This document shows positions 1 to 14,084 of a stretch of 64,000 bases of DNA, in pieces. The stretch covers positions 248,001 through 312,000 of the forward strand of contig NZ_CP123897.1 in assembly GCF_029910655.1 (NCBI RefSeq), written 5' to 3'. Under the pieces are notes generated by a model, which did no database searches, was not told the origin of the DNA, and was given only the letters and a program-made list of their open reading frames with translations. How positions within the stretch are numbered: position 1 is the first letter of the stretch; the number at the start of each line of letters is the position of its first letter. The DNA comes from Methylomonas sp. UP202. GTDB lineage: Bacteria; Pseudomonadota; Gammaproteobacteria; Methylococcales; Methylomonadaceae. The translations under genes and the position numbers were made by a program.

Positions 1-1
1 C

Positions 2-394
2 GGTACCAGCGCTAAAATCATCGACTTTGGCCAAATGCCCAATGGCTTGCTGTCTATCTCTTTACGGGGCGAGCAACGCCAAAGTCTGGATGAAATTCAT
101 CAACAAGCCGATGGACTGTGGCTTGCCAAAACGGGCAATTTAGAGGAAGTAAACGTTTGCAACGGGGAAGTTCTACCTATTTGGGCAGCCGTTTTGAAAA
201 GTTTGATCCAAAGTGGCGTTGTCAGCTGTTCCGAGGCGGAACTTTACGACCACCCGGAACTAGCGATGAATTATTTTGCCATGTACGCACCTCTGCCATC
301 GCATTTGAAGCAATCTTTATTGGAAATAGATGACTTACAAATTCGCTGGCAACGTTTGCAAGAATTTACCGCGCAAAGCTTAATTAAGGTTTAG
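2..394 (+). CDS. LON substrate-binding domain protein, 5' part missing
   Basis: The open frame runs in from before the window edge, so the N-terminus is not visible. The first codons read GTSAKIIDFGQMPNGLLSIS, which resembles the core of the Lon protease N-terminal (PF02190-type) domain, where a GT.A.I.....P.G...I pattern is followed by G..R. About 130 residues are visible and the frame ends in LIKV. No ATPase or protease part follows, so this is a stand-alone LON-domain protein rather than Lon itself. The family is thought to bind protein or peptide substrates; the actual role is unknown. An internal ATG at 35 exists, but the homology continues upstream of it. Confidence 0.7.
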   Translation, partial: GTSAKIIDFGQMPNGLLSISLRGEQRQSLDEIHQQADGLWLAKTGNLEEVNVCNGEVLPIWAAVLKSLIQSGVVSCSEAELYDHPELAMNYFAMYAPLPSHLKQSLLEIDDLQIRWQRLQEFTAQSLIKV

Positions 395-683
395 ATGTAA
401 TGATTTAGCCTGAATAACACGTGGCCTTAATCCAAGTTTCGCCTTTTAAAACGAGAGAGTGAGGGGAATATATTTAAATAATCCGCTATCCCTCATTTTC
501 AAAGAGGGGGCAGATCGCTGAGCAGTGACAAAATCCGTTTGATTGCAAGCTGGCACGGAAATTTCTAAGTAGTCCGGACACTCGCCGAAACCGCCGGATC
601 GAGCGCGTTGGACGAGTGCCATTGTTTAGAAATCGAACATAGACATTGTTCATCTGCCTGCAATTCGAACACTTGCGCCACTA

Positions 684-1088
684 ATGGATAACTTGAGATA
701 CCCGCGTATCGCGTTGGGCATGGTCTTGGCCCTAAGCATTTCCCCCTCTTCGGCGACCGACGCCCACATCAGCGACAAAGGCCTGTACCGGGTGAGTTGG
801 CAAAGCTTGGCCCCGGAACTGACAACCGATTTGATACACGAGTGGCTATTGCATGTGGAGACCGCTGACCGACGTCCGGCGGATAACCTGATCATCACCG
901 TTTCCGCCCACATGCCGGGACATGCGCACGGCCTGCCGACTCAACCCAGGGCGACCGCGTACCTCGGCAACGGCGACTACCGAATCGCCGGCATGAAATT
1001 TCAAATGAGCGGCGTTTGGTGGGTACGCTTCGATTTTTGGCGTAAGAACCGGCGCGACTGGGTGATCTTCGAGGTGCCGGTCAAATGA
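684..1088 (+). CDS. secreted YtkA/FixH-like domain protein
   Basis: This 134-residue protein has a likely N-terminal signal peptide (hydrophobic stretch at about 9-24, ending near SSATDA). The body carries the pattern MPGHAHGLPTQP, then a glycine-rich turn, then Y-x-I-x-GMKFQMSGVWWVRF. That layout is typical of YtkA-like/FixH-like periplasmic domains (PF13115 type), which have an Ig-like fold and are often encoded with c-type cytochromes. Its stop codon overlaps the start of the dihaem peroxidase gene (ATGA), so the two are probably translated together. A direct role is not known; assistance to metal or haem-protein maturation is a guess from the neighbour. Confidence 0.6.
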   Translation: MDNLRYPRIALGMVLALSISPSSATDAHISDKGLYRVSWQSLAPELTTDLIHEWLLHVETADRRPADNLIITVSAHMPGHAHGLPTQPRATAYLGNGDYRIAGMKFQMSGVWWVRFDFWRKNRRDWVIFEVPVK

Positions 1089-2452
1089 GCGTCCCGTTCA
1101 AACCCGAGCTCGCCCCAGCGATCGGCCGGGACGATAAGCCCGGTGCCGTAGACATTCCTAGAAACGAACCGCTTACCCGGCAACGGCAGACTTGTTCGGC
1201 CAAGCGCTTGGCGGGCGGTTGGACTCTGCTCCTGGTGTTGAGCGCGACCAATGCTGGGGCGATCGATTCCGGACTATGGTCCGATAGCGAACTGACCACG
1301 CTGCGCTCTCTGGCGCTGTCCAGCCTGCCGCCGTTGCCGGCCGATCCGTCCAACCGTTTCGCCGACGACCCGGCGGCCGCGGCGTTGGGGCGGCGCTGGT
1401 TTTTCGACCAAGGGCTCAGTTCGAACGGCAAAGTCGCTTGCGCCAGTTGTCACGATCCGGACCGGGATTTCCAGGACGGCCGAGACCTAGCGAAAGGCGT
1501 CGGCCGAACCAACCGTCGCGCGATGCCGCTAGCGGGCATGGCTTACAGCCCGTGGCTGTTTTGGGACGGTCGCAAGGACAGCCAATGGGCGCAGGCGCTC
1601 GGTCCGCTGGAAAACCCCAACGAACACAATCTGACCCGCGGCGGTTGCGCCAAATGGGTGTTGGCGCATTACCGGTCCGAATATCGCGCTGTGTTCGGAG
1701 AGCCGCCCGATCTGTCGGCGCTGCCGGATAACGCCGGTCCGCTGGGCGACAAGCGAGCTCGGCGTGCTTGGATCGGGCTTGACGATTCGGCGCGCGACGC
1801 AGTCAATCGGGTTTTTGCTAATGTCGGCAAAGCCATCGCGGCTTTCGAGCGGCGCATCGCGTGGAACGAAAGCCGGTTCGACGCCTATGTGCGGGCCTTG
1901 GGGGAACAGGCTCCGGCCACGCCGGAAAACTCGTTGAGCTCGGAAGAGATCGCCGGACTGAAACTGTTCATCGGCAAGGCCCATTGTGTCGAATGTCATC
2001 GCGGGCCATTGTTCACCGATCTGGATTTTCACAATACCGGCGTGCCGGCCCGCCCCGGTTTGTCCAAGGATTTGGGGCGCCTGGCCGGCGCGGAACAGGT
2101 CGTCGCCGACGAATTCAATTGCCTCGGCGGTTACAGCGATGCCAGTCCGGAACAATGTCGGGAGTTGAACTTCATCAACAAGGGTGAGCGACGCCTGTTG
2201 CGGGCCTATAAGCCGCCCAGTTTGCGCAACGTCGCGCAGCGTCCGCCCTATATGCATGCCGGACAATTCGCCAGCCTGGAAGCGGTGATCGGCCACTATA
2301 ACCGGGCGCCCGCCGCCCCGGCGGGGCGCAGCGAAATCAAACGCTTGCATCTGAAGCCTGCCGAAATGCGCCAACTGGCCGCCTTTCTGAACACGCTGAG
2401 CGGCACCATCGATAGCCCGGCCGACGCGCGACCGCCTGAGTCTACTCGATAG
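1085..2452 (+). CDS. dihaem cytochrome c peroxidase / MauG-family protein
   Basis: A 455-residue periplasmic protein with two c-haem motifs, CASCH (119-123) and CVECH (301-305), in the spacing expected for the bacterial dihaem peroxidase/MauG family. Also visible are the family pieces LGRRWFFDQGLS before haem 1 and PSLRNVAQRPPYMHAGQF near the C-terminus. The family either reduces hydrogen peroxide with electrons from small cytochromes or performs MauG-like oxidative modification; which applies cannot be told. The hydrophobic export segment lies at about 43-59, after an unusual 40-residue leader, so the true start may be downstream of the ATG that overlaps the preceding gene. No mau genes are adjacent. 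Confidence 0.85.
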   Translation: MSVPFKPELAPAIGRDDKPGAVDIPRNEPLTRQRQTCSAKRLAGGWTLLLVLSATNAGAIDSGLWSDSELTTLRSLALSSLPPLPADPSNRFADDPAAAALGRRWFFDQGLSSNGKVACASCHDPDRDFQDGRDLAKGVGRTNRRAMPLAGMAYSPWLFWDGRKDSQWAQALGPLENPNEHNLTRGGCAKWVLAHYRSEYRAVFGEPPDLSALPDNAGPLGDKRARRAWIGLDDSARDAVNRVFANVGKAIAAFERRIAWNESRFDAYVRALGEQAPATPENSLSSEEIAGLKLFIGKAHCVECHRGPLFTDLDFHNTGVPARPGLSKDLGRLAGAEQVVADEFNCLGGYSDASPEQCRELNFINKGERRLLRAYKPPSLRNVAQRPPYMHAGQFASLEAVIGHYNRAPAAPAGRSEIKRLHLKPAEMRQLAAFLNTLSGTIDSPADARPPESTR

Positions 2453-2691
2453 CCTGTCAGCGCTCGAAGAGGCTTGCCTTGAACCGGCGCGCCCGCATCC
2501 AAGCGCTTCGTGGAAACCACGCCGATTCCGCCCAGGAGTGCTCGCGGGCTTAGGCTGGCGGTTGTTCCGGCTTACACGGACGCGCAAAATCCCGTACCCG
2601 CCGACGAGCCGGCGGGCGCATCCATTCGGGAAGACGACCGAACGCGCCGGAGGTTTTGGATGAAACCCCGCGCCCGTGCTACGGCCTCGCT

Positions 2692-2964
2692 TTAATTACG
2701 CTTGGGACAGTTTTCGCAACGCTTTTCCCAGCCGGTTTGCAAGGCCAGATCCATTTTGGCTTCCAGTCGCGCCAAATGCCGGTTCAGCGCGCGAATTTCC
2801 TGATGCAGGGATTGGTTGTTTTCGTGTATGTGCTGGAAGTGGGTCTGAAAATATTTTGGCAGCGGAAACAGCTCGATAAAATCGGATTCCGGTTTGGCTT
2901 GCCGTTTGTTTTTCTTGGCTGCCTGAATATTTTGGGATTGCGATACTGTCGTCAATTGCGTCAT
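2692..2964 (-). CDS. 90-residue hypothetical protein with C-terminal Cys pair
   Basis: A small, charged, probably cytoplasmic protein. Residues about 40-80 (FQTHFQHIHENNQSLHQEIR and beyond, rich in E, R, L and Q) would form a coiled coil, and the end carries CENCPKRN, a CxxC pair. A Shine-Dalgarno (AAGGAG) lies just before the ATG. It is the last gene of the methanol-oxidation block, about 120 bases after fae, with a perfect hairpin in between. I do not recognise a family. A longer overlapping frame on the same strand reaching 3232 has no ribosome site and runs into fae, so I prefer this one. Confidence 0.55.
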   Translation of the reverse strand: MTQLTTVSQSQNIQAAKKNKRQAKPESDFIELFPLPKYFQTHFQHIHENNQSLHQEIRALNRHLARLEAKMDLALQTGWEKRCENCPKRN

Positions 2965-2987
2965 TGGATAACTCCTTTTCAGTCAAT

Positions 2988-3007
2988 GCGTTCGCCTCGG
3001 CGAACGC
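2988..3007 (-). other. perfect hairpin between fae and the 90-aa gene
   Basis: Two 9-base arms, GCGTTCGCC and GGCGAACGC, are separated by two bases and form a very stable stem-loop in the mRNA downstream of fae. No run of T follows on the minus strand; instead the Shine-Dalgarno of the next gene comes directly. It therefore looks like an mRNA processing or stabilising element rather than a classical terminator. A second short palindrome (GCCGGCGCCGGC, 3069-3080) sits just after the fae stop. Confidence 0.5.
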
Positions 3008-3084
3008 TGGATAAATCCATCCGGGATCTCTCGGGTGTGCATCCTTGCCCGTTGTCGGTGCCAGGCTCGCCGGCGCCGGCAAAC

Positions 3085-3594
3085 TCATTTCGCGGCGTAG
3101 GGGTGCTTGGCACCGGCCTTGGCCGCAATCACTTCGGCCGCGCCGGGTCGGTGGGAAACCGCCCGTTCGATAGCCAATTTGGTTGCTTGGTAGTTGTAGC
3201 GTTCGATTTTGTTGTCGTCCTCGGCTGCCCAATGGATGAACACGCCGACCGAGATGAACAAATCGTCGGCCTGCTCGAGTGGGATCGTGCCGTTTTCAAC
3301 CGAATCGGCCACGGCCATTGCCACGCCGCGCTGGGCCGGGCCGAACATTTGCACGGCTTGGCGAGCGCCCTTGATCGTGACTTTGTTGAACAGAATCGTC
3401 GCCGGCTTGACCATCAAATTCGGCGCGACGACGGCCAACAGCGTCGAAAAGCCCTCCTTGTTGTTGGTCAATGCCAGTGCGAACGCGGTTTCGGCGGCGG
3501 AGCCGCGCGGCCCCAGGATCAGATCGATATGAGCAATCTCGTTGCCGTCGCCGACCAAGGCTTCCCCGACGCAAAGATGAATGATTTTCGTCAT
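3085..3594 (-). CDS. fae: formaldehyde-activating enzyme
   Basis: This 169-residue protein matches Fae closely by eye: [20 protein letters not shown] at the N-terminus, with His22 in the position of the family's catalytic histidine, followed by [20 protein letters not shown], the APNLMVKP strip, and [20 protein letters not shown]. Fae condenses formaldehyde with tetrahydromethanopterin to methylene-H4MPT in the cytoplasm, the entry step of the H4MPT-linked oxidation pathway of methylotrophs. It lies downstream of the PQQ dehydrogenase and cytochrome genes on the same strand, 28 bases after the c-haem membrane protein gene. This fits a block that both makes and removes formaldehyde. Confidence 0.95.
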
Positions 3595-3622
3595 GACGGT
3601 TTGTCTCGTTAGAGGTTAAAAC

Positions 3623-4924
3623 TTAGCGCAACATGTAGTCGGCGATGGCCTGCAGTTCGGTTTCGCTCAGATGCGGAAAACCGGGCATTTGCATGCTGTT
3701 CTCGCGCTTCTTGCCGGGATTTTGGGTCCAGCGGATCAGGCCCTTGGCGTCGCCGGCGTAAATTCGGTGGATTTCCCCCATGTCCGGGCCGACCGTCGGC
3801 AGATTAATATGGTGGCAAGCCGCGCAATTGCGCTGAAACGCTTGTTCGCCGGGATCGACCGGTTCGTTTTGTTGCGCCAACGCGGCCGATTCCGCCTCTT
3901 GCCTGGCGTCGGCCGCCGCCGCCAGATAGTTGGCGGTTTTCTGGGCGATCGCGAGTTTATGGTCTTTCAAGGCATTTTCACGGTACTCGTGGCGAGCGAC
4001 GGCCATCGCCAGTATCGTGCAGGCGAACAGGCCGATGATTTTACTGAAGTGCCTGTCCAGCGGGATCTCGTGATTCACCAGATTGCCCCACATCCAGTAC
4101 AGCGCCGGAACACCGAAACCGCCTCCGGCGAACAACAACAAGGTGACGCCCCAACTCATGCCCTGGGCCGGCAGACTGACGAAGACCACCAACCCGGACA
4201 ATATCTGAAAGATGGTCGCGCCAAACGCAAAGGCGTAGAAAAAACGGCGTACCGATTGCAGCAACGGTTGGCTGAGTTTGACCTCGGCTTGAAATGCCGG
4301 TCGGCCGCTCCACCACGCGAAAAACAGCGCGCTGAATAAAATCGCCGCCGAAACGAAGTGCAAGTAACGCTGCAACACGTTCGGCAACAACACTGCCGAG
4401 AAAAAGCCTTTCACCTCCGGCCAATATTCCGGAAACAACATCAGATTGACGTTGGTCATGTAGATCAGCGGAATAAACAGGAACAGTGCCGATTCCAACG
4501 CGGCGATGCCGATATGCAGTTCCGGAATGTTGACGAAGCGATCCCACCAAAACTTATGCGCGTAGGCCAGCAGAAAAGCGACGGCTACCAGTGGGATTAC
4601 GGCCATCCAGGCGCCGCCGATCAAGGCGCTGGACGCGTAAAACTGCGGCGCGTACAGCGTGTTGATGATCAACAGCGGAGCGACGCCCATCACCACCGCC
4701 AGACTTTTGTTGACGGTGACCGCCTGGGCGATTTTATAGGCCAATCGCTCGTATTCGATCTGCTTCAGACCCTTGATCTGGCAGAACAGGCTGAACAGCG
4801 ATCCACCCAGCATCATGTGCACGAACACAATATGCACGATGAACGAGACGATCAACAAGACTTCGAGCAATCCCTCCGGCGCCGGCAGCGGAAGCGGGAT
4901 GTCGCGAGGTACTGGAACATTCAT
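3623..4924 (-). CDS. polytopic membrane protein with C-terminal cytochrome c domain
   Basis: A 433-residue protein with about eight or nine hydrophobic helices (from about 18 to 320), then a coiled, alanine- and glutamate-rich linker, and a C-terminal c-haem domain with CAACH at 367-371 and a likely Met ligand in MQMPGF. The first helix contains HIVFVHMMLGG, reminiscent of the histidine-bearing first helix of cytochrome bd subunit I. It starts 14 bases after the related 478-residue gene, with an AGGAAA ribosome site, so the two are very probably one complex. Likely role: electron transfer between periplasmic cytochrome c and a membrane haem or the quinone pool. The direction is not known. Confidence 0.65.
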   Translation of the reverse strand: MNVPVPRDIPLPLPAPEGLLEVLLIVSFIVHIVFVHMMLGGSLFSLFCQIKGLKQIEYERLAYKIAQAVTVNKSLAVVMGVAPLLIINTLYAPQFYASSALIGGAWMAVIPLVAVAFLLAYAHKFWWDRFVNIPELHIGIAALESALFLFIPLIYMTNVNLMLFPEYWPEVKGFFSAVLLPNVLQRYLHFVSAAILFSALFFAWWSGRPAFQAEVKLSQPLLQSVRRFFYAFAFGATIFQILSGLVVFVSLPAQGMSWGVTLLLFAGGGFGVPALYWMWGNLVNHEIPLDRHFSKIIGLFACTILAMAVARHEYRENALKDHKLAIAQKTANYLAAAADARQEAESAALAQQNEPVDPGEQAFQRNCAACHHINLPTVGPDMGEIHRIYAGDAKGLIRWTQNPGKKRENSMQMPGFPHLSETELQAIADYMLR

Positions 4925-4938
4925 GTCGGGTTTCCTGA

Positions 4939-6375
4939 TTATGGATGAGTAAGATCGGGGATGCTGCCGTAGTGCGTCGAAGCGGCCACGTGATCGGGCT
5001 TGGGAATGCCGGTGACCTGAACGCCTTCATACGACTGGGCGCGGTTTTGCAGCGAAGCCAAATAAACCGCCAGCGCGGTCAGTTCTTCTTGGTTGCCTGG
5101 GAACGGCGGCATGAAATAGCGGGCGCCGTGCATGTTTTCCAGATAGGCCGCAATCACGTCGGCGTTCCAGCGTTGGTCGCCGTACATCCGGACCAATTGG
5201 GCACGAATGCCGTTGACGCCCTTGACGGTGTGGCAACGGGTACAGGTCAGTTGAAACACTTCGCGGCCGGCAACGGTTTGATTGTCGGAGCGTATGTCGC
5301 GCACGCCGGCGTAAACCGCGTGCTTCAAAATTCCGTCGCGCCGCAGCAAGGGGTAATCGGCGACCCGTATGCCGTTGGCGTACATGTAGTTACCGATGAT
5401 GAAGGGCTTGCGGATGAACTCGCGGACCCGCTCGAATTGTCCCAGCATCACGCACAACACCAGCGCCGCCGCCACATACTGACCGCCGTGCAAACGGCCG
5501 GGACGGCGCAGGCTATCCGTCAGGACCCAGCCGACGAACAGCAGGCCGGCGATCAGCACCCATTTGAAATTGGCGAGCCAGTCGGTATAGGCCTGGGTGG
5601 TGATCGCGACCGGGATATTGGCCAGCATGTGCGCCGGCACCACGCTGGAATACCACCACGCGGTTATCGCCAACAGACCGGTCCACAACGCGGTCCAAAC
5701 GCAAATCGTGCGCGCCAAGCCCTCTCGAAAAGTCGTGTCGCGGTCGGTAAACCAATAGCCGAACGCCATCATCGTCATGCCGCCCATGACCATGGCCAAC
5801 GAGGTTCTAAAGGCCAATTGCGGCAAGTACATCGGATTGAACAGGCCGGCCCACAAGGACTGCCGTTCGTGCCAGTCGCCGGGGTCCATCATGAATCCGA
5901 GTATCGCGACGATGATGGCCATCGTAATCCACGAAAACGCCGCCAACATCACGCCAAAGCGCATATGGCGGCGTTTGGCTAGCGCCGATTCGGTCGAGTT
6001 CGGCCAGCTCAGGAAATACAGCATGATCAGCGAGACTTCGCTAACGAATACGATCCATTCGACGAACCAGCCCCAGAAAAACACCCGAATCAAACTACCG
6101 ATGGCCGCTGGATTGACCAAGGCCGCCGAAAACCAGATGCCGACGCCGGTCAACGCGCCGACCGTGGTTGTCACGATGAACACCACTTTCAACAAGCGGT
6201 AGGCCAACGTGTCCCAGCGCGGATCGCCGTGACGAATACCGGTGTATTCCAGCAGAACCACGATAGGCAGGGCGCCGATCGCGAAGGCGTGGTTGATTAA
6301 AACGTGCAGAATCGCATCGACCGCGATCAGCAGGCGGTTTCCGATGAAGTCGATATGAAATATTGGAAAATCCAT
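4939..6375 (-). CDS. CydA-like membrane protein fused to cytochrome c domain
   Basis: This 478-residue protein begins with helices that resemble cytochrome bd oxidase subunit I: an N-terminal His-containing helix (LHVLINHAFAIGALP), then VGALTGVGIWF, then GWFVEWIVFVSEVSLIMLYF with acidic residues as in CydA. The Q-loop signature GRQPW is not visible and no CydB-like gene follows. The C-terminal domain carries CTRCH (378-382) and a Met in YFMPPFPG, so a c-type haem faces the periplasm. With the next gene it forms a two-subunit, two-c-haem membrane module inside a methanol-oxidation cluster. Electron acceptance from the periplasmic cytochrome is the likeliest job; oxygen reduction is possible but unsupported. 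Confidence 0.7.
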   Translation of the reverse strand: MDFPIFHIDFIGNRLLIAVDAILHVLINHAFAIGALPIVVLLEYTGIRHGDPRWDTLAYRLLKVVFIVTTTVGALTGVGIWFSAALVNPAAIGSLIRVFFWGWFVEWIVFVSEVSLIMLYFLSWPNSTESALAKRRHMRFGVMLAAFSWITMAIIVAILGFMMDPGDWHERQSLWAGLFNPMYLPQLAFRTSLAMVMGGMTMMAFGYWFTDRDTTFREGLARTICVWTALWTGLLAITAWWYSSVVPAHMLANIPVAITTQAYTDWLANFKWVLIAGLLFVGWVLTDSLRRPGRLHGGQYVAAALVLCVMLGQFERVREFIRKPFIIGNYMYANGIRVADYPLLRRDGILKHAVYAGVRDIRSDNQTVAGREVFQLTCTRCHTVKGVNGIRAQLVRMYGDQRWNADVIAAYLENMHGARYFMPPFPGNQEELTALAVYLASLQNRAQSYEGVQVTGIPKPDHVAASTHYGSIPDLTHP

Positions 6376-6760
6376 GTAGGTCCCTAAGCAAAAGTCAGAT
6401 TTGCCTCAGCCCAAGGCAAATGCCGTGCCTGTTTTGCCTAACGAGCCTGCCGCGCCGCGAGCTGCAAGGCTTGGCGTTGGCAACAAAAATTTCGCCCGGC
6501 AAAATGGGTCGCCATTTGTAGCGAATCGGCTCGGCGAAATAGTGTAGAAACTGGACAGGTATGCAGAAATTAAACGGACAATAACTGCCCGATCCGTCGG
6601 GGAATCGCGGCGGCGGGCAAGGCCGGCCGAGTTCGGTATAACGCCGGTTTGGCCGGAAACCGGTTTTGGGTATCGTGGGCGCCCCAAAATTCGGTTGGCG
6701 GGATTCGAAAAGTCGAGCCGCCGGTTATGGGCCGACGGCTCGGGCTCGCTTAGAACGCGT

Positions 6761-6835
6761 CTAACGGTTGTAAATGTACATCGTGACTTCGAAGCCGAAG
6801 CGCAAGTCTTGATAACGTGGTGTTTCCCATTTCAT
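6761..6835 (-). CDS. pqqA: PqqA, precursor peptide of pyrroloquinoline quinone
   Basis: A 24-codon gene whose product reads MKWETPRYQDL at the start and RFGFEVTMYIYNR at the end, essentially the consensus PqqA. Glu16 and Tyr20 are in the E-x-x-x-Y arrangement cross-linked by PqqE to build PQQ. An AGGAG ribosome site lies nine bases upstream. The peptide is the substrate for PqqBCDE, which are not in this window. It lies 81 bases after the cytochrome c gene of the PQQ dehydrogenase operon, with a strong hairpin in the gap, so co-transcription with the enzyme that uses the cofactor is likely. Confidence 0.95.
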   Translation of the reverse strand: MKWETPRYQDLRFGFEVTMYIYNR

Positions 6836-6879
6836 GTCGATGATCTCCTAATGAGTTTGCTTGTTAAATACTCGGTGCG

Positions 6880-6912
6880 ACGCCGAACCGGCCGATTTGG
6901 TCGGTTCGGCGT
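6880..6912 (-). promoter_or_regulatory. 11-bp perfect stem-loop upstream of pqqA
   Basis: The arms ACGCCGAACCG (6880-6890) and CGGTTCGGCGT (6902-6912) pair perfectly around an 11-base loop, in the gap between the cytochrome c stop codon and the pqqA ribosome site. No T run follows on the minus strand. It could attenuate read-through or, more likely, define a processed, stable 5' end for the short pqqA message, which must be made in molar excess because the peptide is consumed. Confidence 0.5.
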
Positions 6913-6916
6913 TCGT

Positions 6917-7396
6917 CTATCGGCTGGGATGCGCTTCCCACCAATTGACGAAGGTTGGCTCCGATCCGGTTCCCAATAAGCGTAGATAGGCCGTCAGGTT
7001 GGCGAGATCGTTGGGGCACAAGTTGTTTTTGAACGACGGCATGCCCTCGCCTTCGCCTTGCGTTACCGCCTCGGCGGTTTCGTCGGCTTCCCCGACCAAG
7101 CTCGGGCCCATCGCGCCGCCGTGGCCGCCCATGCCGTGGCAGCTGTAGCAATTCATCCGCATGAAGGCCCGACGACCTTCGCCGGCGGCGTCCTGAGTCG
7201 GCGTGACGCATTGCGGCGGGGTGGTCAATTTCGGATCGGCCGCCACGGTGGTTCCGCCACCGGTGCCGGTCCGGCTGGAAGCCGTTTCCGAATAGCTGCC
7301 GCCCGTCTTGGGTCGATCCGCTCGCGCGGCGCCGATGCCGCCGACGATGAGCATCAAGCCCAAGGCGGCGCAACTGAGTGTCTGTAAAACTCGCAT
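6917..7396 (-). CDS. periplasmic cytochrome c of the PQQ dehydrogenase operon
   Basis: A 159-residue protein with an N-terminal signal peptide (about 1-26, cleavage near AARA), a Gly/Thr/Ser-rich linker, and one c-haem motif CYSCH (83-87). GMGGHGGAMGPSL follows and a probable Met ligand lies in GEGMPSF. The layout matches the small cytochromes encoded next to XoxF/PedH-type dehydrogenases (XoxG- or PedF-like), which take electrons from PQQ. The ribosome site AGAGG is ten bases from the ATG. The gene starts 19 bases after the XoxJ-like gene. Confidence 0.8.
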   Translation of the reverse strand: MRVLQTLSCAALGLMLIVGGIGAARADRPKTGGSYSETASSRTGTGGGTTVAADPKLTTPPQCVTPTQDAAGEGRRAFMRMNCYSCHGMGGHGGAMGPSLVGEADETAEAVTQGEGEGMPSFKNNLCPNDLANLTAYLRLLGTGSEPTFVNWWEAHPSR

Positions 7397-7415
7397 GATT
7401 GATTTACCTCTTATA

Positions 7416-8276
7416 TCAATGGTTAGCGGCCACGCTATCCGTCGCGGATGGCGTTGAGCCGACGATAGGTTGGATGATCGGTACGCGGTAAGCCGCTAGA
7501 ATCGCTTGGATCTCCGGCCGCTTTCTGGTCAGGCTGGCCGCTAAACGATCGGCCAGGGCCTGGTCGTCTTTGCGGACTCCCAGCGCGATGTCGAATGCAA
7601 ACGGCATTTCCGGACTAGTGGAATCGGCCGGTACCGGCGCGACCTGGATTGCGTTGCCGTAAGGCTTGGCGAAATAACCGGCAATCGGCCCCCAAACCAC
7701 GGCCAGATCGATCTCGCCGTTGGCGACGGCGCTCACGATTTCGCCCTGCGGGTTTTCCTGCGTTTCCTCGCCCCACATCGAATAGCCGACGATGTTTTCG
7801 ACGATGCCTCGGCTAGCCAGCGCGTGCGCCGGCGGCGAATTGGCGCCGTCGTTGCCGATCGCATGCAGACCGATTTTCAGATCGTGCAAGCGCGGATCGT
7901 CGAACGACGAGATGTCCAAATGCCGGCCGGCAGGCGTCACGAAGGCGTAACCCGAGCGATAATACGGCGGGGTGGCGCGCACCCGTTCGTAACCGTGGGG
8001 CACGCCCATCACGACATCGCAATGACCGGCACCCAAGGTTTCCCGTATGAAACCCTGGCGTTGCTTTTGCCAGTAAAAGCTCAGCTTGGCCGGCAGATCG
8101 TCGGCTAACAGCGCGGCGATCTTGTTTTCGAACCCCTCTTGATTGCGATTGGAAAACGGCAGATTGTCCGGGTCCGCGCACACCCGCAGCTCGGTTTCGG
8201 CCGAGGCTGGCGCGGCTAGACTGAATAGCGCCGTCAACAAAGCGATCGCGGCATTGCGACTGGAAGGTGGGTGCAT
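7416..8276 (-). CDS. XoxJ/MxaJ-like periplasmic binding protein of quinoprotein dehydrogenase
   Basis: A secreted protein of about 286 residues. After the signal peptide (ending APASA) comes TELRVCADPDNLPFSNRNQE, the typical start of the solute-binding-fold family associated with quinoprotein alcohol dehydrogenases. Later blocks are DVVMGVPHGYERV and IDLAVVWGPIAGYFA. XoxJ/MxaJ proteins are thought to help activate or assemble the dehydrogenase. I chose the ATG at 8276 because GGAG lies eight bases before it and the signal peptide follows at once. An ATG at 8306 overlapping the dehydrogenase stop (TGATG) and one at 8333 are alternatives. Confidence 0.85.
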   Translation of the reverse strand: MHPPSSRNAAIALLTALFSLAAPASAETELRVCADPDNLPFSNRNQEGFENKIAALLADDLPAKLSFYWQKQRQGFIRETLGAGHCDVVMGVPHGYERVRATPPYYRSGYAFVTPAGRHLDISSFDDPRLHDLKIGLHAIGNDGANSPPAHALASRGIVENIVGYSMWGEETQENPQGEIVSAVANGEIDLAVVWGPIAGYFAKPYGNAIQVAPVPADSTSPEMPFAFDIALGVRKDDQALADRLAASLTRKRPEIQAILAAYRVPIIQPIVGSTPSATDSVAANH

Positions 8277-8305
8277 GGCAGCTTTCTCCGTACCGATGAA
8301 GGACA

Positions 8306-10102
8306 TCAGGGCAGTTTGTAAACGTGAACCCAACCGCCGTTACCGGTGGGGTGTTCGCCGCCGGAGTTGGCCGCGCACTTGTCGTCGCTGAATACCGCGA
8401 TACGTTGCTTGCCGTCGGAGCCGGCAAAACTGATCGGGTTGCCGACCGTATTGCATTGCAGCGCGGCGTTAAACAACGGTGCGCCGGTCTTGGCGTCGAC
8501 GGCTTTCAACGCGGGCGCCTTGGTCGAGTAAAACACCACGCCGCCGGCCGTCGTCAACGTCCCCGCGTAGATCCAGGCTTGCTCCTTGACGCCCCAAAGC
8601 TTCTCGCCCTTGGTGGCGTCCCAGGCGATCAGCTCGCTGGCGTAACTGGTGTCCGACGCCGGCCCGATGCTGTAATCGGTCCCCATATAGGGTGCGCCGG
8701 AGATGAATTCGGCCTTCAATGCCTCTAAATTGCTGCACAGATTGAAGGTCGGCGCGTAGAACAATCCGGTTTTCGGCGAAAACGAAGCCGGTTCCCAACC
8801 CTTGCCGCCGAGCACCGACGGACAGATCTTCTCGGTCAGCACGCCTTGGTGGACGCGCATATCTTCGTTGACGTCCGGCAGGCCGGTCGCGGTATCCACT
8901 TCGTTGGCCCAGTTGACTTCATCCACGAATTGCGGTGCCAGCAGCACTTCGCCGGTGGCCCGGTCAAAGGTGTAGGCAAAACCGTTCTTGTTGAAATGCA
9001 CCAGCAATTTGTCATGGCGAACGCCGCCGACCGTGACGGTTTGATTGACCGCGATGGCCTCGCTGGCGGCGTCGTAGTCCCAACTGTCGTGTGGGGTAAA
9101 CTGGTAGGCCCAGACCGCTTCGCCGGTATCCGGTTTTCTGGCGAAAACCGATGCGCCCCATTTATTGGCGCACTTTTGCGGGTCCTTGGCATACGCGGTT
9201 TGGTCGCAGCGCATATCGGCGTTCCACACGCCCGGCTGGCTGGTGCCGTAGAACAGCAAGTCCAGCTCGGGATCGTAGGTCAAATAACCCCAGGCGGCGC
9301 TACCGCCCAATAGATAGGCGCGCTGGTTGGGCCAACTGGTCGCGCCCTGGTCGACTTGACCCTTGTAATAGACCGAATTGTCGCGGAAGTTTTGGCCGAT
9401 CAGCACGTCCTTGTCGGGACCCGTGTTATAGGCGCGCCATAAGGCTTTGCCGGTTTTCAGATCGAGCGCCTGAATCCAGCCGCGCACGCCCATCTCGCCG
9501 CTGGAAGACGCCGTAATCACCTTGCCTTTGGCAATGATGGGCGCGACGGTCATCGTCACGCCGGTATGCGGATCGGCCAAACGATTGCGCCAGACTTCCT
9601 TGCCGGTGACCGCGTCGACCGCCACGGTGGTGTTATCGAGCAGGTTGAAGACGATTTTACCGTCGGCATAGGCCGCGCCGCGATTGATGCCGCCGCAGCA
9701 ATTGGCGCCCTTGGCGTATTCGCTGATGTTTGGGGCGTAGGCCCATTTGGGTTTGCCGGTGGTTAGATCGTACGCGATCAATTTGTTGGGAAACGGTGTG
9801 ACGACGTACAGCGTTTTACCGACCACCAATGGTTCGCCCATGTGGCTGCCGTGAGTGCCGGTTTTAAAGGCAAATTCTTCTTTTAATTTCGCGGCGTTGG
9901 CGGGGGTAATGTCGGCCAGCTCGCTATAGCGTATGCCTTCCGGCGTACCGCCGGCGGTGGTCCACTCGGCGCCGGCGCCGGTTTGCGCCGACGCGGTTTG
10001 CGCGGCCAACAGTCCGGCCCCAAACAGCAGGGCGGTGATCGGCGTCGTTCGCCGATTTCGGCTGAGCTTTGAATTACGACAAAGCGGGTTGTCAGTGGTC
10101 AT
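8306..10102 (-). CDS. PQQ-dependent methanol/ethanol dehydrogenase, lanthanide type (XoxF-like)
   Basis: A 598-residue periplasmic quinoprotein with a signal peptide ending near TASAQ. It shows repeated beta-propeller W-motifs (DLTTGKPKWAY, DAVTGKEVWR, DLKTGKALWRAYNTGPD), the adjacent cysteine pair CC at 135-136 that packs on PQQ, and SWDYDAASEAI at 340-350. There Asp342 fits the catalytic Asp and Asp344 the extra acid that marks lanthanide-binding enzymes. The C-terminal half diverges from textbook XoxF, so methanol as main substrate is likely but not proven. The start at 10102 has GAAGGAGG before it; an upstream in-frame ATG at 10285 lacks both a ribosome site and a sensible leader. Confidence 0.88.
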   Translation of the reverse strand: MTTDNPLCRNSKLSRNRRTTPITALLFGAGLLAAQTASAQTGAGAEWTTAGGTPEGIRYSELADITPANAAKLKEEFAFKTGTHGSHMGEPLVVGKTLYVVTPFPNKLIAYDLTTGKPKWAYAPNISEYAKGANCCGGINRGAAYADGKIVFNLLDNTTVAVDAVTGKEVWRNRLADPHTGVTMTVAPIIAKGKVITASSSGEMGVRGWIQALDLKTGKALWRAYNTGPDKDVLIGQNFRDNSVYYKGQVDQGATSWPNQRAYLLGGSAAWGYLTYDPELDLLFYGTSQPGVWNADMRCDQTAYAKDPQKCANKWGASVFARKPDTGEAVWAYQFTPHDSWDYDAASEAIAVNQTVTVGGVRHDKLLVHFNKNGFAYTFDRATGEVLLAPQFVDEVNWANEVDTATGLPDVNEDMRVHQGVLTEKICPSVLGGKGWEPASFSPKTGLFYAPTFNLCSNLEALKAEFISGAPYMGTDYSIGPASDTSYASELIAWDATKGEKLWGVKEQAWIYAGTLTTAGGVVFYSTKAPALKAVDAKTGAPLFNAALQCNTVGNPISFAGSDGKQRIAVFSDDKCAANSGGEHPTGNGGWVHVYKLP

Positions 10103-10937
10103 TGAATGGCCTCCTTCTAATGGTTTAACGGTCGAAAAGGCAATAACGAAATCAGCGGAAAATCGCGAGAAATGAATATCGAAATTCGTTTCGATAACTG
10201 ATGACGTCGAGTCCCTTCGAATTTGTGAGAAAACAAACCTAGTGTTTAGGCGTGAATGCGCCGATATCGGAAAACGATCGGGCATATTCAGAATATCGAG
10301 CTGGAATGAATGTTTTGTTAATGCGGGATTAAATCCAAATTAAAACCGGGATTTTTTCCTATTGACAGGGTTGGCTTGAATGCTTGCGCTGGCTAAAAAC
10401 TCTATATAGCTGATTTATATTGGTTATTTCTATTTGGCTGGCGGCGGATTGGTGGCTCGGCACGAATTGGGCTTTGCCGGGAATTGAAAGGCGCGGAATT
10501 TTAATTTGAGTGGTTCGGCGTCGAATAACTTCGAAAATACTCCGCCCCATTATCGCATTTAATTAATTCTGGTTCAGGCTTGGCACAGTAAGCCGGTAGA
10601 ATAAATTCAAGCTTAAAACTCTATTAGAATTTTATTAAAACCGCTTGGTCGGCAATCGGCAAATTGTGCCGGCGATCTATCGTTACCAATATCAATCCAA
10701 GGCAATCTCGGTTTAACGGGGCCGTTACCGCGCGGCGTTTGTCGCCCCATAAAACCCAAGCCAATTAATGGCAGCAAGAGCGAGGACTTGAGAAAACGCA
10801 GCCGAATGTTGGTGCGCTAGTCAGGAGACGAGCGTAGCGCTTTAGTCGAATAGTGAGAGATAGTTCAGTGCTGGATGCTGACCCGCTTTACTCGGCGGCG
10901 GCGAGCGTTCCGAGTGGGGAGGCCGGGAAATCCTCGT
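10103..10937. other. 835-base non-coding region upstream of the PQQ dehydrogenase operon
   Basis: No convincing gene is visible. The part nearest the dehydrogenase (10103-10620) is AT-rich relative to the flanks, as expected of a promoter region for a highly expressed operon, and would hold the operon promoter on the minus strand. I could not fix a single -35/-10 pair. The part from about 10740 to 10937 has no recognisable feature. Short open frames here lack ribosome sites. Confidence 0.4.
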
Positions 10938-11729
10938 TTAAAGCAGCCTGTCCACGATCGACATCACAATCTCGACCGCGATCAGCCAGATGATGATCCA
11001 TTCCAGCGCCGAGGAATGCTGGTGCTTTTGTTCGTCGGCCAGCATCTCCAGCAGTTCGTGTATCGTTTCCAGTTTCTTGGACAGCACCTCGGTGCGCGGC
11101 GCGATTTCCAGATAATTGGCGGCCATCGAATACATGCTCTGATATTCCGGGTGTTCCCAGAAGAATTCCGGGGTATCGAGCAAATCGTAGTTCAGGATGA
11201 TGTCGCTCTTGGTTAGGAACAACTGGCCGCGGATCATTGCCATCGCCTGGCGATTGAGCTTGATTTTGCCTTCGCGAGCCAGCGATCGGGGCAGGTGAGC
11301 GGTCGCGCGGATTGTGTCGATGGCGTGGCCTTCGAAGGCCGCCAGTTTGATCGACTGGGCCATCGCGTGCGACAAGGCCAGCAAGACCAGGAAGTCGCCG
11401 GATTGCAATTCGATATGATCGTGTTGAAAACGATCCTGCTCACAGTCGGTTTCGTAGCTGAAATTGTCTTCCGGCGGTTCGTCGGCCGGCGTCGTCGCAT
11501 ATTCGAGCAACAGCTCTTGCAAGCCGTGGCGCTCGTCCAGAGCGACGTTCCAGTAAACCACGACGCCGTAGGAAAATACCACCGCGCAACCGGTTTTGTA
11601 ATCCACGATCAGCGCGTTCCGAAATACTTGAGTGCGCCGGGTGTCGAGCAGTTTTTCGCGCAGATCGGCAAAACGGAACGATTGCGCCAGGCAGACGGTC
11701 ATGCAGCGCTTAACGATACGATTTTCCAT
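10938..11729 (-). CDS. DUF155 / RMD1-family protein
   Basis: A 263-residue protein with the DUF155 layout: an N-terminal part with VFSYGVVVYWN, a central helical part (LALSHAMAQSIKLAAFEG), the block FLTKSDIILNYDLLDTPEFFWEHPE, and a single membrane helix at the very C-terminus (ALEWIIIWLIAVEIVMSIVD). RMD1-type proteins are membrane-anchored and of uncertain function in bacteria. The ATG at 11729 gives the usual length. A longer frame to 11846 would overlap the promoter of the divergent DAHP synthase gene and is less likely. Confidence 0.75.
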   Translation of the reverse strand: MENRIVKRCMTVCLAQSFRFADLREKLLDTRRTQVFRNALIVDYKTGCAVVFSYGVVVYWNVALDERHGLQELLLEYATTPADEPPEDNFSYETDCEQDRFQHDHIELQSGDFLVLLALSHAMAQSIKLAAFEGHAIDTIRATAHLPRSLAREGKIKLNRQAMAMIRGQLFLTKSDIILNYDLLDTPEFFWEHPEYQSMYSMAANYLEIAPRTEVLSKKLETIHELLEMLADEQKHQHSSALEWIIIWLIAVEIVMSIVDRLL

Positions 11730-11834
11730 GGTCAGGTCGATTTCCGTTACAGGCTTAGCATTACTTTGTATCACAGGCGGCGCAAAGGTTAAAATAGCGG
11801 TTTTCGACCATTCATCGAGCCTACGGCCACGCTT

Positions 11835-12914
11835 ATGCCTACCCACTATAACACCGACGATTTAAGAATTTGCGACACCAAGGATGTCGTAGCGCCGATT
11901 CAGGTTCATGAAGAGATCCCGATGACCGAATTCGCCGCCGCCAATATTCTGAAGACCCGCGCGGCGATTCACGACATTTTGTACGGCAACGACGACCGGC
12001 TGTTGGTCGTCATCGGCCCTTGTTCGATACACGATCCGGAAGCGGCGGTGGAATACGCCCGGCGTCTGAAACTGGAAATCGAGCGCCTGGAGCGAGACCT
12101 GGTGATCGTGATGCGGGTCTACTTCGAAAAGCCGCGTACCACCGTGGGCTGGAAGGGTTTGATCAACGACCCGGATTTGAACAGCAGCTTCAACATCAAC
12201 AAAGGCTTGCGGATGGCGCGCAAAGTGTTGTCCGACGTCAACAATCTGGGCGTGCCGGCCGCGACCGAATACCTGGACTTGATTACGCCGCAGTACGTGT
12301 CCGACCTGATCTCCTGGGGCGCGATCGGCGCCCGTACCACCGAAAGCCAGGTACACCGGGAGCTGGCTTCCGGATTGTCTTGTCCGGTCGGCTTCAAGAA
12401 CGCCACCGACGGTGGCGTCAAAATTGCGATCGACGCGATCAACGCGGCAATGAGTCCGCACCACTTCCTGTCGCTGACCAAGGAAGGCCGTTCGGCGATT
12501 TTTTCGACCCGCGGTAACGAAGACGCCCACATCATTCTGCGCGGCGGCAACAATCGCCCCAATTACGACGAAGTCAGCGTCCAACAGGTCGCCGAAGGTC
12601 TGGAAGACGCCGGCCTGCGCCCCAATATCATGATCGATTTCAGCCACGCCAACTGCCAGAAGAAATACGAACGGCAAATGTTGGTGGCGCAGGACGTGGC
12701 CGGCCAAATCCGCCAGGGCGATCGCCGCATCGTCGGCATCATGGCGGAAAGCCATCTGGTCGAAGGCCGTCAGGATGTCGAAGACGGCAAGGCGCTGGTG
12801 TTCGGCCAAAGCATTACCGACCCCTGCCTGGGTTGGGACGATACCGTCAAATTACTTAACGATCTGGCCGGCGCCGTCGAACGCCGCCGCGCCGCGACTT
12901 CACCTAAGGTTTAA
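11835..12914 (+). CDS. aroG: 3-deoxy-7-phosphoheptulonate synthase, class I
   Basis: This 359-residue cytoplasmic enzyme condenses phosphoenolpyruvate and erythrose 4-phosphate, the first step of the shikimate pathway. The AroFGH-type pattern is clear: LLVVIGPCSIHDP, MRVYFEKPRTTVGWKGLIND, GARTTESQVHRELASGLSCP, GFKNATDGG, and a metal-binding region with DFSHANCQK and MAESHLVEGRQ. Which isoenzyme class (feedback by Phe, Tyr or Trp) cannot be assigned. The thiazole synthase gene follows after three bases, suggesting one transcript. Confidence 0.93.
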   Translation: MPTHYNTDDLRICDTKDVVAPIQVHEEIPMTEFAAANILKTRAAIHDILYGNDDRLLVVIGPCSIHDPEAAVEYARRLKLEIERLERDLVIVMRVYFEKPRTTVGWKGLINDPDLNSSFNINKGLRMARKVLSDVNNLGVPAATEYLDLITPQYVSDLISWGAIGARTTESQVHRELASGLSCPVGFKNATDGGVKIAIDAINAAMSPHHFLSLTKEGRSAIFSTRGNEDAHIILRGGNNRPNYDEVSVQQVAEGLEDAGLRPNIMIDFSHANCQKKYERQMLVAQDVAGQIRQGDRRIVGIMAESHLVEGRQDVEDGKALVFGQSITDPCLGWDDTVKLLNDLAGAVERRRAATSPKV

Positions 12915-12917
12915 CGC

Positions 12918-13895
12918 ATGAAAATACAAGTCAACGGCGACAGCCGCGAAGTGGCCGACAATACCTCGGTCGCCGACGTCATCGCCGATTTGGGCCTGAC
13001 CGGCAAACGCATTGCCGTCGAATTGAATCTGGAAATCCTGCCGTTTACCCAGCACGGCCAACATGCTTTGAAGGACGGCGACCGCCTGGAAATCGTCCAC
13101 GCCATTGGCGGCGGCCAGGACGATTATTTCACGCTGGCCGGCAAGCAATACCGCTCCAGGCTGTTGGTCGGCACCGGCAAATACCGGGATCTGGACGAAA
13201 CCCGCGATGCGATTGCGGCCAGCGGCGCCGAAATCGTCACCGTGGCGATTCGCCGTACCAACATCGGCCAAAATCCGGGCGAACCGAATCTGCTGGACGT
13301 GATTTCGCCGGACAAATACACGATATTGCCCAACACCGCCGGCTGCTATACCGCCGACGACGCGGTGCGCACCTGCCGTCTGGCCCGCGAGTTGTTGGGC
13401 GGTCACAAGTTGGTCAAGCTGGAAGTGCTGGCCGATCAATTGACCTTGTTTCCGGATGTCGCCGAAACCTTCGTCGCCGCCGAATTGCTGGTCAAGGACG
13501 GTTTCGACGTGATGGTGTACACCAACGACGACCCGATCGCCGCCAAGCGCCTGGAAGACATCGGCTGTGTCGCGGTGATGCCGTTGGCCGCGCCGATCGG
13601 TTCCGGCCTGGGCATCCGCAATCCCTACAATATCCTGACCATCGTTGAAAACGCCAAGGTGCCAATTTTGGTCGATGCCGGCGTCGGCACCGCTTCCGAT
13701 GCGGCCATCGCGATGGAATTGGGTTGCGACGGCGTGTTGATGAACACCGCGATCGCCGCCGCCAAGAATCCGGTGTTGATGGCCTCGGCGATGAAAAAAG
13801 GCATCGAGGCCGGCCGCGAAGCCTTTTTGGCCGGCCGGATGCCGCGCAAGCGTTTCGCCTCGGCCTCGTCGCCGATCGACGGCTTGTTTTTATAA
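12918..13895 (+). CDS. thiG: ThiS-ThiG fusion: sulfur carrier plus thiazole synthase
   Basis: Residues 1-66 are a ThiS-like ubiquitin-fold domain ([12 protein letters not shown] at the start, then IVHAIGGG, the Gly-Gly normally at the free C-terminus of ThiS). Residues about 68-325 are a complete ThiG barrel with LLVGTGKY, a Schiff-base Lys in KLVKLEVL (Lys167), [14 protein letters not shown] and [11 protein letters not shown]. ThiG forms the thiazole phosphate of thiamine from deoxyxylulose 5-phosphate, dehydroglycine and ThiS thiocarboxylate. In this fusion the carrier's Gly-Gly is internal, so adenylation would need cleavage, or another ThiS must exist. The gene follows aroG by three bases. 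Confidence 0.93.
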
Positions 13896-13944
13896 GCCGG
13901 CGCGGGCGACCTCGATCCATCACCCTAAAAAGAGCAGTTTGGCG

Positions 13945-14084
13945 ATGAAAAATCCCGTTCGTCCTGAGTTTGTCGAAGGGCGTGCGGGATTTTTCATTCA
14001 CCCGTTTGGCGAGTGTATTGCGAGCCGTACATCATGCTTCGACAGGGCTCTCATGAGCGCAGCCGAAGGACTCAGCACGAACGG
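13945..14084. repeat. nested inverted-repeat element (REP/MITE-like) after thiG
   Basis: Inner arms ATGAAAAATCCCG (13945-13957) and CGGGATTTTTCAT (13985-13997) form a perfect 13-bp stem. A second pair, CCGTTCGTCCTGAG (13955-13968) and CTCAGCACGAACGG (14071-14084), is inverted over a longer distance. The core GTTCGTCCTGAG.TTGTCGAAGG and its inverted partner resemble the dispersed intergenic repeats seen in many gammaproteobacterial and methanotroph genomes. It may also end transcription from the aroG-thiG unit, since the first stem is followed by T-rich sequence. Confidence 0.65.

Follow-up and report, generated by a model that had tools for sequence, protein, structure and literature searches.

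What brings together, on a single strand, a lanthanide-type methanol dehydrogenase, the precursor of its cofactor, two haem-bearing membrane proteins and a formaldehyde-activating enzyme, and do these genes form one system or two? The question is raised by a locus of Methylomonas sp. UP202, which lies in a stretch of 64,000 nt (contig NZ_CP123897.1, positions 248,001 to 312,000; hereafter the window, to which all positions refer) of a 5.68-Mb genome in two contigs. From position 10102 down to 2692, eight minus-strand genes follow one another: xoxF, xoxJ, cytochrome c, pqqA, TM1, TM2, fae and u90 (Table 1), TM1 and TM2 being our names for two polytopic c-haem proteins and u90 a 90-residue protein. 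A previous sequence-only reading had given these genes in this order and with these families, both of which were borne out, the latter by curated models (PQQ_enz_alc_DH, ABC_peri_MoxJ_2, PqqA and Fae above their cut-offs, a CBB3-type cytochrome c, cytochrome c tails on TM1 and TM2, and no family for u90). It had gone on to propose a single regulon. The evidence assembled here points instead to two abutting operons, xoxF-xoxJ-cytochrome c-pqqA (unit 1) and TM1-TM2-fae-u90 (unit 2), the second most likely encoding a cytochrome c:O2 oxidase that works without copper and serves under copper starvation, a reading to which we assign a probability of roughly two in three.

Intergenic gaps in the block are shorter than 30 nt, except for 81 nt before pqqA, 120 nt between fae and u90 and, by far the widest, 385 nt between pqqA and TM1. 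The last of these opens with a terminator-like hairpin, and the 71-nt stretch that contains it has a folding energy of -26.1 kcal/mol (z -2.27 relative to dinucleotide shuffles). A hairpin lies directly 3' of pqqA in all eight loci folded, i.e. the window and 7/7 other pqqA-bearing xoxF loci, and the stability of the 90-nt stretches following pqqA exceeds that of mononucleotide shuffles by about 2 to 4 standard deviations. The T tract that follows is clear in two of these loci (L071 and L074) and amounts to only four T in the window. Scans of the sequence were uninformative, both for terminators (15 found versus 12.6 expected, the pqqA hairpin not being listed) and for sigma70-type promoters (five found versus 4.4 expected). 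The hairpin likely ends transcription of unit 1. Because of this hairpin, the 385-nt gap, a promoter-like box upstream of TM1 and the fact that each unit recurs without the other, a single operon spanning all eight genes was rejected as the leading view. Neither the gap and its hairpin nor the box had figured in the sequence-only reading.

The box in question is of the sigma54 -24/-12 type. Transcription of the genes for soluble methane monooxygenase (sMMO) is RpoN-dependent in the three species studied, and every mmoX sequenced is reported to be preceded by the consensus YTGGCACGrNNNTTGCW (PMC5874634). When a box was defined by a score of at least 9 of 12 within 300 bp upstream, one was found before TM1 in 14 of the 16 methanotroph regions read (among which the window and L029 stand for one species, and L032 and L034 for one metagenome-assembled genome, MAG) versus 18 of 268 control open reading frames (ORFs), the latter called mechanically. 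In the window it reads AGGCACGGCATTTGCC and lies at -55, while in nine other loci it lies at -105 to -109. The same search recovered a box in 9/10 mmoX regions (the tenth being shortened), with a score of 11 for the mmoX of the window's own genome, and in 3/15 xoxF regions, that of the window's xoxF not among them. Judged by its letters, the TM1 box would qualify as a -24/-12 element of the sMMO (MmoR-sigma54) regulon.

What unit 2 encodes can be approached from TM1, which is predicted to be a member of the cytochrome bd superfamily. A profile built from 19 TM1 proteins matches Geobacillus CydA (5doq_A) with an E-value of 2.6e-9 (hmmsearch), and the best Foldseek matches of a TM1 model (pLDDT, the predicted local distance difference test, of 74) are bd oxidases, with a best E-value of 5.9e-6; PF01654 was not matched by TM1 in a Pfam scan. 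H24, E106, E113, E319, R322 and P324 are invariant in 24 sequences, the 19 plus five distant relatives with 25-28% identity (four from a family labelled f4, and G092). The first three align with CydA in the profile search, and E319-RKP was paired by eye with E-GRQP(W) of CydA. We take these residues to form the site of the high-spin haem pair (b595/d), as their CydA counterparts do. At the position of His186, the CydA ligand of haem b558, TM1 has no histidine, and an invariant R190 is found at or next to it (24/24 sequences); the CydA quinol-loop region is not alignable with TM1. Each protein ends in a c-haem domain, with CxxCH at residue 378 of TM1 and 367 of TM2, a motif present once in 19/19 TM1 and conserved in 18/18 window-type TM2.

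TM2 is less readily placed. Its model (pLDDT 77) has 7d5i_A as best Foldseek match (E-value 9.6e-4), and the top ten matches are all bd subunits, at TM-scores of about 0.5. A profile-profile comparison of TM1 with TM2 gave a probability of 97.7% over an alignment that includes their common cytochrome c tail. Global profile alignment of either protein to CydA was unproductive and a local alignment of TM2 with the CydA of the genus weak (E-value 0.12), so that the assignment of TM2 rests on its model and on its similarity to TM1, to which the tail contributes. The description of TM1 and TM2 as a 'CydA-like pair' in the sequence-only reading therefore holds well for the first and more loosely for the second.

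A closely similar protein has been described. A 2015 study of Methylococcus capsulatus Bath proposed that MCA1187 acts as a cytochrome c oxidase independent of copper, under the name 'cytochrome cbd', and found it 28.3-fold up in sMMO-producing cells (PMC4831470). Like TM1, MCA1187 is a bd-like subunit I that lacks the quinol loop and the b558 ligands and carries a C-terminal CxxCH, and it is likewise tied to sMMO production. With its bd core devoid of a b558 ligand and its C-terminal CxxCH, TM1 would on structural grounds be a cytochrome cbd of the MCA1187 type. The arrangement had been presented as unrecognised, and the TM1-TM2 pair itself, at least, has this published counterpart. Genomes of family f4 encode TM1 relatives that are 26-28% identical to the window's protein and mostly near sMMO genes; they probably include MCA1187-like proteins. 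The distant sets (five from f4, and G092) differ from the window type in TM2, which has CxxCH in 0/6 of them, and a gene with two CxxCH motifs is near by in 4/7 loci read. While u90 goes with the window type, a u90-like gene was also seen beside one distant set (L183). Compared with canonical CydAB, of which the genome encodes two CydA subunits in addition, TM1 has the fold and the high-spin haem residues in common, but neither the b558 histidine nor an alignable quinol loop, and it has an extra c haem. TM1-TM2 may belong to the OR-C family (Murali 2021). The OR-N family of the bd superfamily has been described as probably oxidizing cytochrome c rather than quinol (PMC10839748 and PMC13189123 mention OR-C/OR-N).

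A bd-like scaffold with c haems need not be an oxidase. TM1-TM2 could be a cytochrome c-linked redox or sensing complex, serving for example in detoxification of nitric oxide or O2, and the strong divergence of TM2 between subtypes would fit such a role: H137, H189 and H312 are absent in 6/6 distant relatives (five f4, and G092), and H123 in 5/6. So would the unrelated neighbours of the genes in non-methanotroph relatives. In TM1, by contrast, the residues that align with the haem b595/d site do not vary over 24/24 sequences, and the oxidase role postulated for MCA1187, whose level rises in cells producing sMMO, has the same basis (PMC4831470). We regard a non-oxidase function as unlikely.

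Genomic distribution gives the oxidase reading its physiological setting. Strong orthologues of TM1 (at least 66% identity) occur in 16 of 237 genomes of the window's family, or 17 if the 28%-identical protein of G092 is counted, which was kept out of the strong set, with results given both ways. The window's TM1 is 99% identical to that of a genome of the same species, and was also seen in a record of Methylomonas koyamae R-45383 (L029). A scan of named genomes returned 22 loci, from methanotrophs (Methylomonas, Methylobacter, Methylovulum, Methylotuvimicrobium and unclassified Methylococcaceae) and from records titled Planctomycetes, Phycisphaerales, Verrucomicrobiae, Opitutus, Bacteroidales and others. 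TM2 lies downstream of TM1 wherever the contig is long enough, and u90 comes after TM2 in 12/13 methanotroph loci of that scan. The u90 proteins have a YFQxHF motif (alignment of 14), and scans of the window's own and two further members gave no convincing family. The window's genome and three more of its genus (G107, G129 and G131) have fae between TM2 and u90; in the window's genome this fae is one of three copies and is 82% identical to that at G000:C1:3623553. In seven loci a conserved protein of about 225 residues adjoins TM1-TM2 (L031 8757-9434, L087 12039-12665 and five more); three members were scanned against Pfam and NCBIfam, without a convincing match.

When copper runs out, sMMO replaces the particulate methane monooxygenase, but standard cytochrome c oxidases depend on copper. 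The sMMO gene mmoZ is present in 57/237 family genomes and in 15 of the 16 with a strong TM1 (p 1.4e-9; this and the following p values are hypergeometric and ignore phylogeny), a co-occurrence that spans six genera of the family. Within the window's genus, where 18 of 37 genomes have mmoZ, so do all six that carry TM1 (p 0.008, and 0.016 once the same-species duplicate is removed). Across the order (311 genomes), TM1 relatives whose match extends over the membrane part occur in 28, 12 of 40 genomes having been dropped for matches confined to profile position 331 or later, and mmoZ is found in 25/28 of these versus 69/311. Outside the window's family, a distant TM1 occurs in 11 genomes, all of family f4; mmoZ accompanies it in 10/11, and in 7/10 of these the two lie within about 25 kb. 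In four of the 15 family genomes that have both a strong TM1 and mmoZ, unit 2 even lies upstream of mmoX on the same strand, at 715, 894, 1584 and 2091 nt in G159, G173, G049 and G053; in Methylotuvimicrobium buryatense 5G, TM1-TM2 lies 0.7 kb upstream of mmoX. As unit 2 co-occurs with the iron enzyme sMMO and has a promoter type in common with it, its most likely role is under copper starvation, which would disable cytochrome c oxidases that depend on copper.

Several observations weigh against this reading. As many as 42 of the 57 sMMO-bearing family genomes have no TM1, so TM1 is not essential to growth on sMMO, and TM1 without mmoZ was seen in G010 (a 75% complete MAG), in G092 and in the f4 genome G296. 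The mmoZ of the window's own genome is far off, at C1:5397534, and other genes intervene between unit 2 and mmoX in G049 and G053 (L035 and L037). The TM1 of M. buryatense (L040) has a box at -430 only and none within 300 bp, and the L087 region reaches a score of 8 within 300 bp and of 9 at -443. A box was found in 0/6 non-methanotroph TM1 regions searched up to 500 bp, and no methane or methanol gene was seen among ten proteins neighbouring TM1-TM2 in Planctomycetes, Verrucomicrobia and Bacteroidales records (L041-L047). Since these relatives have neither one-carbon neighbours nor the box, the basic function of TM1-TM2 is not tied to methanotrophy. Finally, confidence in the two structural models is moderate, and their TM-scores are about 0.5.

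Unit 1 is a different kind of module. The closest PDB sequence to the window's xoxF product is 4mae (458 bits), entries named XoxF scoring 413 bits (6dam) and 387 bits (6oc5). It has the DxD aspartate of the lanthanide site, as DYD, like the XoxF5-like copy of the genome (to which it is 40.5% identical), whereas the MxaF-like copy has DYA. This aspartate is present in 17/17 relatives read, as DYD in 14, of which 13 had been retrieved with a pattern requiring it, and as DFD in three (L077-L079). XoxF1 and XoxF2 are unreported from gammaproteobacterial methanotrophs in the accessible text of a dehydrogenase survey (PMC12482762), and since these two clades are thereby eliminated, the enzyme is probably an XoxF3. 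Window-type xoxF was found in 18/237 family genomes (search at E 1e-150). In 16 of the 17 other xoxF loci read (L070-L086) the order is xoxF, xoxJ, cytochrome c, about 2 kb separating the cytochrome gene from xoxJ in L084, and seven continue with pqqA; the contig of L072 holds xoxF alone. Besides the pqqA of the block, a second copy was found in the genome, at G000:C1:4934228, and a longer xoxJ starting with TTG at 8333 is possible. XoxF3 sets are similar to unit 1 in that xoxF is next to xoxJ in one strain, in being patchy in gammaproteobacterial methanotrophs and in being multi-copy in some Methylomonas, and in its accessible text the survey mentions for them neither pqqA after the cytochrome nor a neighbouring oxidase (PMC12482762). 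On a plasmid of Methylocella tundrae (NZ_CP139088.1; L120 3893-9494), a set of xoxF, xoxJ-like and cytochrome genes adjoins genes for a cytochrome c oxidase, including ctaD and subunit 3, and is thus another methanol dehydrogenase set beside a terminal oxidase.

How the two units are related is a separate matter. TM1 was seen in none of the 17 other xoxF stretches (L070-L086), and among the 22 TM1 loci of the named-genome scan, within the DNA examined, window-type xoxF was found only at the same-species L029. The join is confined to the window's genome and G107, i.e. one species and two genomes, while G103 carries both genes far apart. The comparison of gene order proposed with the sequence-only reading thus finds each unit conserved separately and the full arrangement only in the window's species. 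In G131, an XoxF5-type gene (95% identical to the copy of the window's genome) and an XoxJ-like gene (L089 3-2310) lie some 10-11 kb from TM1-TM2-fae-u90, with glycogen genes between them. Window-type xoxF was also considered as a partner of sMMO and rejected, mmoZ being present in 5/18 xoxF genomes (p 0.44).

These data bear on the idea of one regulon that would lead from methanol to methylene-tetrahydromethanopterin, with TM1-TM2 reserved as the electron exit for the window's XoxF. Eight genes on one strand within 7.4 kb, the position of fae between TM2 and u90, the proximity of an XoxF5-type gene to unit 2 in G131 and the Methylocella tundrae plasmid are all in keeping with it. We nevertheless consider it unlikely, given the hairpin after pqqA in 8/8 loci, the gap, the box that TM1 has for itself, a join known from one species and the finding that, over 237 genomes, only TM1-TM2 goes with sMMO. 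An electron exit to a membrane oxidase, as had been proposed, remains plausible in itself; its dedication to the window's XoxF is an attractive, local possibility.

The juxtaposition might also be functionless, two patchy modules having landed together, which concerns the join alone and does not conflict with the reading given above for either unit. Both are indeed patchy (TM1 in 17/237 and window-type xoxF in 18/237 family genomes), and they overlap in four genomes, three without G092, and adjoin in one species. Against a functionless join, this overlap is slightly above chance when G092 is counted (p 0.03), both units fit one-carbon respiration and fae belongs to unit 2 in four genomes of the genus. 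Chance is a serious contender for the join, at somewhat less than even odds.

Table 1. Features at and around the block in the window.
Feature	Positions	Strand	Evidence	Unit
xoxF, pyrroloquinoline quinone (PQQ)-dependent methanol dehydrogenase, lanthanide type	8306..10102	-	TIGR03075 (PQQ_enz_alc_DH) 495 bits, cut-off 480	1
xoxJ, XoxJ-type periplasmic binding protein	7416..8276	-	TIGR03871 (ABC_peri_MoxJ_2) 296 bits, cut-off 212 (scanned as 7416-8333)	1
Single-haem cytochrome c, XoxG-like (CBB3-type cytochrome c)	6917..7396	-	PF13442, PF00034; CxxCH at residue 83	1
pqqA, 24 aa	6761..6835	-	TIGR02107 44 bits, cut-off 20	1
Terminator-like hairpin 3' of pqqA	6714..6742	-	11-bp stem, short T tract	
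Sigma54-type -24/-12 box AGGCACGGCATTTGCC	6415..6430	-	55 nt upstream of TM1	
TM1, putative bd-superfamily catalytic-type subunit, C-terminal c haem (cytochrome cbd type)	4939..6375	-	profile and model	2
TM2, putative second bd-like subunit, own C-terminal c haem	3623..4924	-	model and profile-profile match to TM1	2
fae, formaldehyde-activating enzyme	3085..3594	-	TIGR03126 237 bits, cut-off 118	2
u90, YFQxHF motif	2692..2964	-	no family match; accompanies TM1-TM2	2
MauG-like di-haem protein	1085..2452	+	PF03150	possible extension of 2
YtkA-like protein, adjoins MauG-like gene	684..1088	+	PF13115	

Facing the block are the MauG-like and YtkA-like genes (684-2452), a pair that the sequence-only reading had passed over. 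Copies of both (74% and 80% identical, respectively) lie just downstream of TM1-TM2-u90 in L087 (G103), and MauG-family genes are among the copper-responsive genes of M. capsulatus (PMC4831470). Elsewhere in the window, an ORF at 12918-13895 (+) resembles, by eye, a single-frame ThiS-ThiG fusion for thiazole synthesis, and known RNA elements were absent at the gathering threshold from positions 1-14000.

The two-operon reading suggests the following scheme. Operon 1 would make the lanthanide methanol dehydrogenase, its binding protein and cytochrome, and extra PQQ precursor. Operon 2, probably starting from its own sigma54 promoter, would make a membrane oxidase of the bd superfamily, in which reduced periplasmic cytochrome c may deliver electrons to the c haems of TM1 and TM2 and these in turn to the high-spin haem pair of TM1, where O2 would be reduced to water, neither a quinol site nor copper being involved. 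Fae would capture formaldehyde from methanol oxidation. The mechanism of a copper-free cytochrome c oxidase is not new and agrees with the proposal made for MCA1187 (PMC4831470). Relative to what that account accessibly reports, the subtype with CxxCH in TM2, u90, the TM1 box, the co-occurrence with sMMO and the join to a lanthanide dehydrogenase operon are additions, and a literature search at the level of titles and abstract openings found no publication naming this arrangement.

For methanotroph respiration without copper, expression data from a single species had led to the postulate of a haem-only oxidase fed by cytochrome c (PMC4831470). The comparison made here adds a distinct subtype, a promoter type in common with mmoX and a co-occurrence with sMMO in six genera, and culturable hosts such as Methylotuvimicrobium buryatense 5G make the oxidase idea testable. 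A bolder and rather doubtful extension is that the window's strain unites a full copper-independent respiration of methane, consisting of sMMO, a lanthanide dehydrogenase with its cytochrome and a haem-only cbd with two c haems, in which the oxidase operon would have been relocated beside the dehydrogenase operon so that electrons from methanol may reach O2 without copper while Fae clears the formaldehyde.

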